This document shows positions 18,814 to 27,073 of a stretch of DNA of 64,000 bases, piece after piece. Made by a program: the position numbers and the translations under genes. The DNA lies in contig NZ_CP011388.1 in the NCBI RefSeq assembly GCF_001644605.1, positions 140,001 through 204,000 of the forward strand. Direction: 5' to 3'. The stretch comes from Paenibacillus swuensis (lineage in GTDB: Bacteria > Bacillota > Bacilli > Paenibacillales > DY6). Under the pieces are notes generated by a model that was not told the DNA's origin, ran no database searches, and worked only from the letters and a program-made list of their open reading frames with translations. How positions within the stretch are numbered: position 1 is the first letter of the stretch; each line of letters begins with the position of its first letter.

Positions 18814-20901
18814 TTATTCAGGTATCGGCAACTGAAACCGGGTTGCTGTGCGGATTGCGGCCTCTCTCGCCCGCTCTGTCAGGAAGAAGAGACGGTCATT
18901 CTTCTTCTCGGGGTCCGCTTGCCTTGCCCGGGCAGCGAATGCCTCATAGGCATCAAGAGATCGCACGGCATAATCCCGAGCAACTTCGGCTTCTCCCCTC
19001 TGTCCGGCCTGCAAAGCCGCTTCATACCAGAGCTGAATGAGTTGCTCCTGCTTTCTTTTGTCATAGGGGTCAGACTCTACTGCCGTTTGCCATTCCCCTT
19101 CCGCCGCCTCCATCTGACCTAATGCCGAATAAGCAATGCCCAACTGCCAATGCAACTCCGGATTACGGGGCTCATAGCGAAGGCCTTCTTTCAGCAACGG
19201 GATGGCTTTACGCTTAGGCAGCCGCTCCGCAAGAGCAAGCCTGTCGTCCGCAGAATAGGGATACAGACGCAACGCCGTTTGCCGCTGGTTGAGACCGGGT
19301 TCACCGCCCGCACCCCCTGACCGATTCGCAAGCGGATTGGAACTGTTCCACCATCTCACGGCTTGGGTTGGAAGGCTCTCACCCGGAACGGCGGAAATGA
19401 CAAACCTGGCCGCATCCATCCGCACGGAATAGAATATTCCGGCAGAAAGGAGCAGGAGTAAAGCAAAGGTGGCTCTTTTTTGCCATGGGAATGAGAAGTG
19501 TTCTGCAGCGTTGTGGTTGCGGGGTAAGCTCAAGTTATCGGTCCCGCCTAAGGCGATCCATAGGAATGACAATATCCAGAAAAAACCGTAGGACATATCA
19601 AAATCAACGGCGCTATGCGCAAACAAGACGGCCAGCGGCGCCAGCAGCATGGAATGCCGCCTGGCCACCCGAACGGCAAACAGAAGTAACATGACTATGA
19701 ACAACAGGCCCCCAACCGTCCCGGTGTCCATCCAGATATCCAGATATCCGCTGTGAACCTCAGATCCTACGTATGGGTTGCTTTGGTAGGACGTGTATAA
19801 CTTCCCCCAGCTGTTGCCGCCCGAGCCTGCCCAAGGAGACTCGCTGATAATGGTCATAGCATCATTGTAAAACTGTGCGCGCGCATTCGCCGTTTCGTAA
19901 TGACCGCTCACTCGTTCGGTTGTGGTAGCCGGTATGATGAAACTGAACAGCAGCATACCTAAAGCTATAACCGCGCTTGAACCGAGATAGACAACCCTGT
20001 TCATAGAAAGTCGTACAATTAAAGGGATAATCATACTTAGGATAATACTGATGACGATCAGGCTGTAAATTCCCGGAAACGACGTTGGGCCGGATTGTAT
20101 AGAGGATACGATCGTAAAGTGAGCGATACCTGCCGCACATAAGACCAAGACCGATAGTAAAGCATAATTGAACTTGACGGCTTTGGCGATGCAAATCCAA
20201 CCGGCCATCCATCCTATACCGATGGCGATCCAGGCTCCTCTGGATTCAGTCAGCAGGATTGCCGTGGCATATGGAACTAAAGGGATGGCTTGAAGCCAAA
20301 TTCGCAAGTAGGTTGTGGACCGCGCTTGACCGGAGGATGGACTGACAATACCTCCCATTGTATACAACAGATAGGCCCCCATCACCGCCCCGAACATATT
20401 CGCATATTGAAAATAACCGGATAACCTTAAGCCTAAAGCGGATAATCGCTCGTCGGAGGCGTGCTGTACAATCTCGGGATAGTCCAATAGTCCGTAAAAC
20501 CCTGACCATGCGCCGGCCAAAATAAATAAGCCGGATGCGGTCAAAATGTGATTTAACACCGCTCTATGATGTGACCGATGCTGAATATAAAGAACACATA
20601 ACCACAGAAAGCAGCCATAGGCTGTCCATCTTAAAGCTTCGTGGATGGTGCCTCCGACCGATGCCGGATTCATAAAGGTTGACACGGTGTAAAATAAGGC
20701 CATGCTGAATGGAAGGAGCGCCCAACCGGAGGTTCGGATCCAAAGAAGTCTTGTGGTTATCGCATAAACGAGGCATACCGCCGCAAAGCCAAAGAGGACC
20801 CACTGCAACGTATAGAAATCTTTATCGAAAAAAAGGCCGCGGCGAAAGGCCGATAACATGCAAACTAAACCTATCAAGAGAGCTAACCAGGATGATTTCA
20901 T
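18814..20901 (-). CDS. O-antigen-ligase-family membrane protein with C-terminal TPR region
   Basis: 695 residues. About twelve hydrophobic segments span residues 5-475 with the Wzy_C/O-antigen-ligase core: L-T-E-S-R-G-A-W near 225 and the G-S-G-G-N-S-W and V-H-S-G-Y-L-D-I loop near 360-390. A tetratricopeptide-like tail follows (about 540-690, N-P-E-L-H-W-Q-L-G-I-A-Y-S-A-L-G). Family members polymerise or transfer glycans on the outer face of the membrane. In a Gram-positive this would be a secreted or wall polysaccharide, or a glycoprotein. There is no glycan locus around it. The ATG follows GGGGAAC with 7-base spacing. Confidence 0.82.
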   Translation of the reverse strand: MKSSWLALLIGLVCMLSAFRRGLFFDKDFYTLQWVLFGFAAVCLVYAITTRLLWIRTSGWALLPFSMALFYTVSTFMNPASVGGTIHEALRWTAYGCFLWLCVLYIQHRSHHRAVLNHILTASGLFILAGAWSGFYGLLDYPEIVQHASDERLSALGLRLSGYFQYANMFGAVMGAYLLYTMGGIVSPSSGQARSTTYLRIWLQAIPLVPYATAILLTESRGAWIAIGIGWMAGWICIAKAVKFNYALLSVLVLCAAGIAHFTIVSSIQSGPTSFPGIYSLIVISIILSMIIPLIVRLSMNRVVYLGSSAVIALGMLLFSFIIPATTTERVSGHYETANARAQFYNDAMTIISESPWAGSGGNSWGKLYTSYQSNPYVGSEVHSGYLDIWMDTGTVGGLLFIVMLLLFAVRVARRHSMLLAPLAVLFAHSAVDFDMSYGFFWILSFLWIALGGTDNLSLPRNHNAAEHFSFPWQKRATFALLLLLSAGIFYSVRMDAARFVISAVPGESLPTQAVRWWNSSNPLANRSGGAGGEPGLNQRQTALRLYPYSADDRLALAERLPKRKAIPLLKEGLRYEPRNPELHWQLGIAYSALGQMEAAEGEWQTAVESDPYDKRKQEQLIQLWYEAALQAGQRGEAEVARDYAVRSLDAYEAFAARARQADPEKKNDRLFFLTERAREAAIRTATRFQLPIPE

Positions 20902-21581: not shown

Positions 21582-21617
21582 AACAGGAAAGACCGGCTAA
21601 TCGCCGGCCGGTCTGTT
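21582..21617. terminator. Hairpin between convergent genes
   Basis: AGACCGGC (21590-21597) pairs with GCCGGTCT (21607-21614), and flanking AACAG/CTGTT can extend it. T-runs are poor. Probably a weak terminator for the glycosylase and PilZ genes. Confidence 0.45.
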
Positions 21618-21619
21618 CC

Positions 21620-22312
21620 CTATTCCTCTGCTGCTTTCGAGGCATCATCTTTCTTCTTCGAGAAATAAGTCACGGTCTGTGTCTTGACGATAAAGGCACG
21701 GATGGCACTCGTCTGCTCCGAGGTTAAAGATAACATGCGCACCCCGTAATAATGACCTTGGCCGATAAATTCACAGCGGATGATTTCGACTCTGCAGGTC
21801 AGCGGGAAGCCGATATCCACTCGGACACTCATCTGGGAGCCAACGGGAATCGGCTCATAAGCGTAAACCGCCAGCCCCATCCCGCTCAAGCTGATATTCT
21901 TCAGACTTAAAGCAATCGGCTCATTGTCGGGATTGTCTTTCGATGCGTGATCCCTTAACAAGATACCCTTGCAATCTACTTGTACACGTGTGGTTTCACG
22001 TTGTTCCTTGAATTTCTTCCGGTTGTCCGGCGGGTTCAGCACCATGATCGCCCCTCGGTCTTTAGCTACAACCATGGTATGAAACACATAAATCCCTGCT
22101 TTCGAATATACGGTCAACTTCACAGGTTTCCCGAGATCAAACAGCTTATATTCCGCGATTTCAACCTCAATAACGTCCCCTTCGGCATAGGTGAGGATCC
22201 CGGTGGATACGAAATCTTCTTTCTCCACAACGGTCTTGCACTGCAATAAGACGGAAGCGGCAATACTCGTCTGGTAGTTCATCTTCTTAGCTAAGTTGCT
22301 GTTCGTATACAT
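21620..22312 (-). CDS. PilZ-domain protein with YcgR-like N-terminus (c-di-GMP receptor)
   Basis: About 230 residues. The N-terminal beta domain (about 20-105) resembles the YcgR N-domain (PilZN). The C-terminal PilZ domain (about 108-225) carries both c-di-GMP-binding motifs: R-E-T-T-R (RxxxR) and N-I-S-L-S-G-M-G (D/NxSxxG). YcgR-type proteins brake flagellar rotation when c-di-GMP is bound. The frame is open back to 22432, but that would cover the riboswitch and terminator; the ATG at 22312 lies directly after GGAGAG and is the plausible start. It is controlled by the c-di-GMP-I riboswitch upstream. Confidence 0.88.
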   Translation of the reverse strand: MYTNSNLAKKMNYQTSIAASVLLQCKTVVEKEDFVSTGILTYAEGDVIEVEIAEYKLFDLGKPVKLTVYSKAGIYVFHTMVVAKDRGAIMVLNPPDNRKKFKEQRETTRVQVDCKGILLRDHASKDNPDNEPIALSLKNISLSGMGLAVYAYEPIPVGSQMSVRVDIGFPLTCRVEIIRCEFIGQGHYYGVRMLSLTSEQTSAIRAFIVKTQTVTYFSKKKDDASKAAEE

Positions 22313-22358
22313 CTCTCCACACCGCCTTGTTCTCCAAATTTGTACATTTTTCGGCAAC

Positions 22359-22418
22359 AAAAAAGACCGCATCCTCCAACAGACACAGCCTTTAGGCTTG
22401 TAGGAAAGGATTTTCGGT
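22359..22418 (-). terminator. Riboswitch expression platform (intrinsic terminator)
   Basis: On the minus strand ACCG (22415-22418) and ATCCT further in can pair with AGGAT and CGGT (22366-22369), closing a stem immediately before a run of six U's (22359-22364); an inner AGCC/GGCT hairpin fills the loop. The ACCG is also the conserved end of the aptamer, so the two structures exclude each other. Confidence 0.75.
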
Positions 22419-22506
22419 AGCCAGGCTGCCATCGTTACAACTCGCGTTGTAACCTTAGACCCTAAGCTTTGCGTCCTTACTTTTCAATAAGTTTGCCGTT
22501 ATCGAA
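22411..22506 (-). ncRNA. Cyclic-di-GMP-I (GEMM-I) riboswitch aptamer
   Basis: Read on the minus strand, the conserved GEMM-I blocks occur in order: GGCAAAC, a GAAA tetraloop hairpin, GGACGCAAAGC, GG-TCTAA, a second hairpin (GTTACAACGCGAGTTGTAAC) and ATGGCAGCCTGGCTACCGA. TTCG and CGAA at the ends form P1. It lies between a promoter and the PilZ gene. It binds c-di-GMP and, from the overlap with the terminator stem, should favour read-through when bound (inference). Confidence 0.93.
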
Positions 22507-22533
22507 TACTTAAGCACTATGTTATTAAACGAT

Positions 22534-22562
22534 ATCATACCGTATTTTGACAATTTTCGCAA
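22534..22562 (-). promoter_or_regulatory. Promoter of the riboswitch-PilZ transcript
   Basis: Minus-strand TTGCGA (22557-22562), a 17-base spacer and TATGAT (22534-22539). Predicted start near 22527, about 20 bases before the aptamer. The rest of 22563-22670 shows nothing further. Confidence 0.6.
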
Positions 22563-24690: not shown

Positions 24691-25719
24691 TCATTCTTGA
24701 CGCAGATAACGCTTATCCTTCAGAAAGAGCTTCCAGAACAGGTAAAACGCCGGACCCAGAATCAGTAAGCCCACGATGTAAGCTATTAGTAGCGCTCGGA
24801 ATGTGGCAGGATCCGTAAATCCTTCCTCCACGGTCAGGTAAGGCTGAATAATGAAGGGCATATGCGAAAGTCCGTAACCAATGCTGGCGAACGCGTACTG
24901 AATGATAATCGCGGTGAAGGCCACTCGCGGAACCCCCGGGGTCCCGTCCCCTTGCCTCCAGAGCAAAGCGCTGTAGCCAAATATGAACGCGAGCACCGAG
25001 AAGATGAACCACAAGAAATTCTCTTCAATACCATCCCTGATCCATTGCGCCTCGGGAACGAACGTGAACGTTGTAATCACCGCGAAGAACAGGGTGAAGG
25101 GTCCCAGCCACAATGCGGCTTTCCGATACAGTAAATACGCGCTGCGATCTCCGGACTCGCTTGAATAGTCTGAAAGAAACAGGGAGGCTAGAAACAGTTC
25201 CGTTGTCAGTCCGAAGCCCAAATGAGCCCACAGGGTTACGGAGCCTAGCAAACGACCGAAATGAAGCTCCGGAACACCTTCGGGGTTTATATCAATAAAT
25301 CCACCGAGGGAAATCGGCAGAATACTCAGGAGCAACCCCGGAATGAGCAAACCGGTAACACCGGAGACAATGTTCAGTTCTTTGCCGTATTTACGCGAGG
25401 AGTATGCGTAAACCATAAACGTGCTGCGAATCAGCAATAGCAACAACACCAGGGAGACGGGCACCAGTAAGGCGGTTCCCAACATGGCGATCGCGGTGGG
25501 AAAGAAGCCGACCAGCGCGATCACCACCATGACCAGAAACGTATTCGTTACTTCCCAGGTCGGGGACAGAAATCGGTTTGCCAGAGCCCCTGCGTTACTC
25601 CCCTCGCGGTTCCCAAACAGCATGCCCCAAAAGCCCGCCCCGAAGTCCACCGAACCGAGGATGGAATAAACAAACACGATAACCCATACCAGCAGAATCG
25701 CTATCGTAGACTCAGCCAT
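24691..25719 (-). CDS. cydB: Cytochrome bd quinol oxidase subunit II
   Basis: 342 residues with about eight to nine membrane segments and the CydB opening V-F-V-Y-S-I-L-G-S-V-D-F-G-A-G-F-W-G. It pairs with CydA to form the bd-type terminal oxidase that reduces oxygen at low tension using menaquinol. Its ATG lies inside the end of cydA (8-base overlap), implying translational coupling. No cydCD genes for the bd assembly exporter are present in the window. Confidence 0.95.
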   Translation of the reverse strand: MAESTIAILLVWVIVFVYSILGSVDFGAGFWGMLFGNREGSNAGALANRFLSPTWEVTNTFLVMVVIALVGFFPTAIAMLGTALLVPVSLVLLLLLIRSTFMVYAYSSRKYGKELNIVSGVTGLLIPGLLLSILPISLGGFIDINPEGVPELHFGRLLGSVTLWAHLGFGLTTELFLASLFLSDYSSESGDRSAYLLYRKAALWLGPFTLFFAVITTFTFVPEAQWIRDGIEENFLWFIFSVLAFIFGYSALLWRQGDGTPGVPRVAFTAIIIQYAFASIGYGLSHMPFIIQPYLTVEEGFTDPATFRALLIAYIVGLLILGPAFYLFWKLFLKDKRYLRQE

Positions 25720-27073
25720 TCGTGTTCACCCCTTCATCCTCCAGAATCGGCGTATCCGGCGTAAGGTCTTTGGACACCGGATGACGCTTGAAGTAAAATC
25801 GAAGCACGAAGGCGGTAAGAAACAGCAGTACCACATAGATCCCGATGAACATGAAGAACAAAGTGGGCAAATTATCGGATTTCGTTGCCGCATCCTTCGT
25901 TAACTGCATGTGATAGATCGTCCATGGCTGTCGGCCGGTACAACTGAAAATCCAACCGGTTTCGATCCCGATCATGGATAAAGCGCCGCTGCTGACCAGA
26001 ACCCAGAGCATCCAACGCGGCAGTGACTTCTTCAGAACATACCGCCAGGCTAGTACACCGAAAGCTAGAACGATCAGAAACCCTCCGATGACCACCATGA
26101 TGTTAAACAGGGTGTGGATATATAGCGGCGGCCAGAGCTCCTGAGGATATTCGTTCAGTCCCTTCACGACCGTATCAAAACTGTTACCGGCAAGAAAGCT
26201 GAGCGCCCAGGGAATTTCAATGCCTCCCTCGACCTCCCCGGTTTCCGGATTCGCCACCCCGAAGACCGCAAGCGGCGCGTGGCTCGTTGTCTCGAAGAGG
26301 CCTTCGGCCGCCGCGAGCTTCTCAGGCTGATACTTATGCAGCATCTGTGCCGTAGCGTGACCGTTGATGGCCGTAAATAAGGACAAGGTGCCTCCCACCA
26401 CCAATGCCAGCATTAAGCTGCGATGATGGTAAGCTCTCTCTTCCTTGGTGGATCCTCTCTTCAACAACTTGTATGCCGCCAGGGACACAATAACAAATGC
26501 GCCAGTCATATAAGCGGAGGACAGCACATGGAGAGCGGTGGAGTACAAGCTGGGGCTGAAGATCGCCGCAATGGGATCGACGTTCGTCACTTCTCCGTTG
26601 ACCAAGTCAAACCCTCGGGGGGTATTCATCCATGCATGAGCATCCGTAATGAGTACCGCCGACGCGCTCGCGCCGAGGGCAACGAAAAAGACGCTGATAA
26701 TCCGTAAGGTCGGAGTCAGCCGATCCGCGGCATAGATATAGATAGACATAAATAGTGCTTCCAGCATAAAGGCCCATATTTCAACCTGAAACGGAACGGC
26801 AATCACTTTGCCGACAATCTCCATAAAACCCGGAAACAACAAAGAAAGCATTACGCCCACAATCGTTCCCGACGGAATGGCTACACCTAAAATAATGGCG
26901 AAGCCTTTCGTCCATCGTTTGGCCAAGATCGCGTAATGCTTATTCTTCTTTGTGTGATAGAGTATTTCCGCAAAAACAACCATGAACGGAATCCCGACTC
27001 CCAGCGTCGCAAAAATAATATGAAACGCCATTGAGGATCCGAACAAAGCGCGTGCCAGAACTACGTTGTCCAT
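25712..27073 (-). CDS. cydA: Cytochrome bd quinol oxidase subunit I
   Basis: 453 residues, about nine membrane segments. The haem-ligand His is in M-A-F-H-I-I-F-A near 19, and the invariant G-R-Q-P-W-T-I-Y motif is present. The length indicates the short-Q-loop type usual in Firmicutes. The ribosome-binding site (AAGGGAAG, 8 bases before the ATG) sits in the 3' arm of a large hairpin (27082-27146). A KinB-like kinase ends only 83 bases upstream on the same strand, so co-transcription is possible. I found no Rex-type operator in the gap. Confidence 0.95.
   Translation of the reverse strand: MDNVVLARALFGSSMAFHIIFATLGVGIPFMVVFAEILYHTKKNKHYAILAKRWTKGFAIILGVAIPSGTIVGVMLSLLFPGFMEIVGKVIAVPFQVEIWAFMLEALFMSIYIYAADRLTPTLRIISVFFVALGASASAVLITDAHAWMNTPRGFDLVNGEVTNVDPIAAIFSPSLYSTALHVLSSAYMTGAFVIVSLAAYKLLKRGSTKEERAYHHRSLMLALVVGGTLSLFTAINGHATAQMLHKYQPEKLAAAEGLFETTSHAPLAVFGVANPETGEVEGGIEIPWALSFLAGNSFDTVVKGLNEYPQELWPPLYIHTLFNIMVVIGGFLIVLAFGVLAWRYVLKKSLPRWMLWVLVSSGALSMIGIETGWIFSCTGRQPWTIYHMQLTKDAATKSDNLPTLFFMFIGIYVVLLFLTAFVLRFYFKRHPVSKDLTPDTPILEDEGVNTNG

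Follow-up and report, generated by a model that had tools for sequence, protein, structure and literature searches.

A c-di-GMP-I riboswitch, probably an OFF switch, ahead of a conserved PilZ gene in Paenibacillus swuensis and its relatives

Results and discussion

In the window, that is, the whole 64-kb stretch of Paenibacillus swuensis DNA analysed here, a riboswitch of the c-di-GMP-I (GEMM-I) class lies upstream of a gene for a predicted c-di-GMP receptor of the PilZ type. The riboswitch class is a known one, its target here is unusual and conserved, and the PilZ gene is most likely controlled through transcription termination by the aptamer. Such control by transcription attenuation would probably operate as an OFF switch, in which the receptor is made while c-di-GMP is low. 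The features on which the analysis rests are as follows.

22534-22562, minus strand: candidate sigma-A promoter TTGCGA-N17-TATGAT (pattern scan, 9/12 matches), position presumed right
22413-22507, minus strand: c-di-GMP-I (GEMM-I) riboswitch aptamer (RF01051, full length)
22503-22506, minus strand: P1 5' strand UUCG, partner of CGAA (sequence)
22413-22416, minus strand: P1 3' strand CGAA (sequence)
22419-22429, minus strand: predicted antiterminator 5' arm GCAGCCUGGCU, mostly the lower P3 helix in the folded aptamer (folding; homologous ACAGCCUGG in relatives)
22385-22398, minus strand: predicted antiterminator 3' arms AGCC (22398-22395) and AGGCUGU (22391-22385) (folding)
22362-22393, minus strand: intrinsic terminator T1, 13-bp stem AAAGGCUGUGUCU-GUUGGA-GGAUGCGGUCUUU (scan, -14.5 kcal/mol, alignment, covariation)
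22364-22359, minus strand: U-tract of T1 (scan)
22415-22418, minus strand: ACCG, 5' base of the alternative terminator T2 (energy fold; helix not conserved)
22366-22369, minus strand: CGGU, 3' base of T2 (energy fold)
21620-22312, minus strand: gene for a YcgR-type (PilZNR + PilZ) predicted c-di-GMP receptor, 230 aa (domain match, AlphaFold model, fold matches)
21591-21609, minus strand: terminator-like hairpin directly 3' of the PilZ gene (scan)

The aptamer and its transcription unit

The covariance-model match to RF01051 spans model positions 1-87 and scores 79.8 bits (E 4.5e-14) against a gathering score of 35 in Rfam, and c-di-GMP-I is the sole Rfam family found at gathering thresholds within the 64-kb window. 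A first-pass annotation of this DNA had described a GEMM-I aptamer with every conserved block and had proposed this search, and the full-length match above the gathering score bears the description out; the interval that it had assigned to the unit, 21620-22562, takes in the gene, the aptamer and the promoter. Both GGCAAAC and ACCG were seen in the alignment of the aptamer to the model. We take GGCAAAC to place a G at the ligand-contacting position, where variants for c-AMP-GMP would carry A, and ACCG to supply the partner C near the 3' end. The aptamer is of the c-di-GMP-I class, and it is predicted to bind c-di-GMP.

The 17-spaced promoter of the first-pass annotation is present as described (TTGCGA at 22562-57, TATGAT at 22539-34), but a match of this kind is expected by chance, as two promoter-like matches were observed in the region against 1.9 ± 1.5 in shuffles. 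The aptamer is separated from the PilZ start codon by 100 nt, and the unit looks monocistronic, given the terminator-like hairpin directly behind the gene. Many Paenibacillus leaders (including L018, L022, L023, L029, L032, L037 and L040) carry a dyad, for example TAGGTCTTTTAGACC or TAGGTATTAGTGCCTA, just 3' of a likely promoter (TATAAT) and some 35-75 nt before the aptamer. This dyad may be an operator or a hairpin at the 5' end of the RNA; the window's leader has at most the half-site GGTCTATT.

The PilZ protein

The product of 22312-21620, for which an alternative later start is possible at 22282, contains a PilZ domain (PF07238, E 2.7e-8). Its RxxxR and NxSxxG motifs are intact, as had been reported from the letters, and the residues concerned (R105/R109 and N139/S141/G144) are invariant among 36 homologues. 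The PilZNR domain reached E 0.033 in the window's protein, below cut-off, and was matched in 32 of the 36 family members scanned (E 0.1 or better). The AlphaFold model has a pLDDT of 82.5, and its best fold matches are two-domain PilZ proteins, with MotI/DgrA of Bacillus subtilis (5vx6) first and YcgR of Escherichia coli (5y6f) also present; their low TM-scores probably reflect domain placement. The protein probably shares the PilZNR-PilZ layout of MotI/DgrA (YpfA) and YcgR, although 5vx6 and the window's PilZ show no sequence match, and a sequence search of the PDB with a profile of the PilZ family gave no match.

MotI/DgrA acts as a flagellar clutch in B. subtilis (PMC7064775). An identification of the riboswitch-linked PilZ with this clutch was rejected, both on the missing sequence match to 5vx6 and because the MotI orthologue is a separate gene. 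The latter (L070, 1474-2211) lies between ypeB-like and cmk genes and matches 5vx6 with E 3.4e-17; no similarity between it and the riboswitch-linked PilZ was detected by BLASTP, and no aptamer was found at its locus within the DNA searched.

Conservation of the aptamer-PilZ pairing

The pairing was compared across 151 genomes of the same order, a set that includes the window's own genome as the only one of its family. The PilZ family is encoded by 61 relatives in this set, and according to Rfam searches a class I aptamer lies upstream of the gene in 46 of them, one of which gives its best match to the GGC variant model; this pairing exceeds chance. A single-protein query of genome contigs for the PilZ family returned no match, and a query with an alignment returned 68 loci in named records, almost all of them Paenibacillus, with an aptamer ahead of the PilZ gene in 50 of these by motif search. 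The 68 loci overlap with the 61 relatives, and the two counts are therefore not independent. As the arrangement is conserved across these sets of relatives, it is probably old and selected. In L054-L059, which belong to another GTDB family, the aptamer is kept ahead of the PilZ gene with a different platform and no clear antiterminator; the terminator is mostly of the CGTCCGCC-TTCG-GGCGGACG type, and L055 has none. Judged from these sequences, the expression platform has been replaced in this group.

A conserved terminator independent of the aptamer

T1 lies directly downstream of the aptamer and includes no aptamer base. Relatives have in common a terminator of the form AGGCUGUnnn...nnnGCAGUCU-UUUU, and when 34 sequences were aligned, AAAGGCUGUGUCU...GGAUGCGGUCUUU of the window occupied the same columns, with the terminator pairs formed in 93.2% of cells and a covariation score above that of all 500 shuffles. 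More widely, 62 of 63 distinct sequences have a terminator at least as stable as -8 kcal/mol that is independent of the aptamer and lies wholly 3' of it. When P1, P2 and P3 of the window's aptamer were held, the core of T1 formed at 0.998 in the ensemble, with ACCG unpaired with the terminator arm. T1 is therefore compatible with the ligand-bound fold of the aptamer, as an OFF switch requires of its terminator.

An antiterminator formed from the aptamer 3' strand

The conserved alternative pairing joins the 3' strand of the aptamer to the 5' arm of the terminator, the arrangement expected of an OFF switch. In Paenibacillus the T1 5' arm AGGCUGU is complementary to the aptamer 3' strand ACAGCCU, and ACAGCCUGG(UUACC) pairs with GGUAAUAGGCUGU over up to about 13 pairs; in the window, GCAGCCUGGCU forms 11 pairs with AGCC and AGGCUGU, and the GGUAA toehold of the relatives is missing. 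Relatives with a stronger antiterminator include P. silvestris (L086, identical in sequence to L023) and P. alginolyticus (L104). The antiterminator excludes both the ligand-bound aptamer and the terminator. In 40 of the 63 distinct sequences, taken individually, fewer than 1 in 20 shuffles matched the core helix that joins the aptamer tail to the terminator arm. In the window this core helix (GCAGCCU/AGGCUGU) was reached by 7 of 200 shuffles, and the antiterminator was only modestly better than shuffles (13/300). Across the alignment the antiterminator is 83% formed, against at most 47% for slid versions, and a C-G pair of the helix has become U-A in L015. Most covariation measures of this helix are reached by shuffles, its covariation being limited because one arm lies inside the conserved aptamer.

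Folding of partial window transcripts was performed with P2 held, since its tertiary contacts are assumed to hold it. For transcript ends from +27 to +39 nt past the aptamer, the free RNA has 7-12 antiterminator pairs and is more stable by about 4-6 kcal/mol than the aptamer-held ensemble, in which no such pair forms. The antiterminator state (-46.3 kcal/mol) and the aptamer with T1 (-45.2 kcal/mol) are closely balanced, about 1 kcal/mol apart, and bound ligand would tip this balance. For the full-length free RNA, equilibrium lies with T1 or T2, and read-through must therefore be kinetic. A home-made co-transcriptional simulation (P2 held, two rate settings), which is crude, setting-dependent and of little weight as evidence, predicted an OFF response under either rate for L023 and L030, only under the slower rate for L043, and nothing clear-cut for L015; for the window the antiterminator never formed, and termination occurred with and without ligand.

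Direction of the switch

We propose that, when c-di-GMP is absent, the aptamer 3' strand GCAGCCUGGCU would pair with the downstream AGCC and AGGCUGU as the RNA emerges, so that the antiterminator would occupy the 5' arm of the terminator and RNA polymerase would read into pilZ. With c-di-GMP bound, the aptamer 3' strand would stay in P3 and P1 and leave AGGCUGU free; T1 would then form, transcription would stop and less PilZ would be made. We infer both the direction and the size of this effect, and for the window's own copy the OFF direction, drawn from homology and energetics, is the more probable one. The purpose may be to make the receptor while c-di-GMP is low and to halt its synthesis once the ligand is high.

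The first-pass annotation had reached the opposite direction, holding that the ACCG that ends the aptamer is also the base of the terminator stem, so that c-di-GMP would block termination. In such an ON switch, ACCG of the ligand-free RNA would pair with CGGU as the terminator base, and P1, once stabilised by ligand, would take ACCG away, yielding PilZ at high c-di-GMP. The pairing itself can form: T2 reaches -15.9 kcal/mol against -14.5 for T1, and in the free full-length RNA the minimum-energy structure (-48.6 kcal/mol) is the one built on ACCG; these folding energies, like the others given here, leave out tertiary contacts and magnesium. In addition, of the alignment cells in the ACCG/CGGU columns, 88% are paired, and the class I switch Bc2 of Bacillus thuringiensis is an ON switch (PMC4933901). 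However, the helix contains a C.A mismatch in 15 of the 34 aligned relatives, and its sole covarying pair (A-U to G-C) tracks the split between two sequence groups. Furthermore, T1 remains (0.998 with the aptamer fully held) when T2 is blocked, so termination would not stop. That T1 uses no aptamer base, covaries and forms with the aptamer held speaks against a block of termination by ligand, and we regard the ON switch as unlikely; the feed-forward loop that had been drawn from it, with the receptor made only when its ligand is abundant, is probably reversed, given the OFF-switch layout of the conserved pairing.

There is some chance, albeit a small one, that the window carries a weak or decayed copy, in which the aptamer still binds c-di-GMP and the platform terminates mostly regardless, leaving low and little regulated expression. 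The simulated termination in both states, the loss of the toehold part of the antiterminator and the preference of both free and held ensembles for T1 at full length would all fit such a copy. The simulator, however, is crude and setting-dependent, every conserved block of the aptamer is kept at 79.8 bits, and the 11-bp antiterminator persists within about 1 kcal/mol of the aptamer with T1, which is unlikely in a decaying element. Action of the aptamer mainly on translation or RNA stability rather than on termination would be consistent with the 100 nt between aptamer and start codon and has a parallel in Vibrio cholerae, where class I switches act otherwise than by termination (PMC6366702); with a conserved, covarying intrinsic terminator between the aptamer and the gene, we consider it highly improbable.

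Comparison with known systems and possible roles

The OFF direction proposed for the PilZ leader agrees with that in Clostridioides difficile, where all seven functional class I switches are OFF by termination (PMC6366702). Cd1 (Cdi-1-3) of the C. difficile flgB operon is likewise of class I, with termination rising with c-di-GMP as predicted here (PMC6366702); its target is a flagellar operon, whereas that in the window is a predicted c-di-GMP receptor. Bc2, ahead of cap in B. thuringiensis, is also a Gram-positive leader that combines a class I aptamer with an intrinsic terminator (PMC4933901), but it is an ON switch with an adhesin as its target, unlike the PilZ target of the window. The literature searched, which took in only a minority of subscription papers, gave no account of a class I switch preceding a PilZ gene, and a paper on PlzD of Vibrio vulnificus mentions riboswitches as general background only.

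Across Paenibacillus and its relatives, an RNA receptor may restrain a protein receptor for the same ligand, so that the protein would be made only at low c-di-GMP and its synthesis would stop as the ligand rises; we hold this wider reading to be evenly balanced. If true, it would provide a built-in limit or a pulse in the c-di-GMP response. The ON feed-forward and the OFF limiter make opposite predictions, and with RNA and protein receptors for one ligand paired across the lineage, feedback on signal sensitivity can be tested directly. Should the PilZ protein, like its fold relatives, have motility as its target, then under an OFF switch motile cells with low c-di-GMP would produce it in readiness for a rise in the signal. 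In addition, this previously unstudied PilZ family gains a regulatory context.

Other c-di-GMP elements and neighbouring genes

The genome (5.01 Mb, one contig) contains five c-di-GMP-I aptamers, along with four PilZ, eleven GGDEF and seven EAL matches. The four other class I aptamers are L001, L003, L004 and L005 (G000:C1 1132594, 1230005, 1885788 and 2510459), two of which match the c-di-GMP-I-GGC model. The genes behind these four, named from their translations, are those for an S-layer-homology protein, a transglutaminase-like secreted protein near a sortase-like gene, a short unresolved reading frame, and a VWA surface protein behind fliD-fliS-like genes. Within the window, 18814-20901 (minus strand) encodes a 695-aa O-antigen-ligase-like (Wzy_C) membrane protein with a TPR tail, and two neighbouring reading frames at 24691-27073 (minus strand) resemble, from their translations only, subunits of cytochrome bd oxidase.
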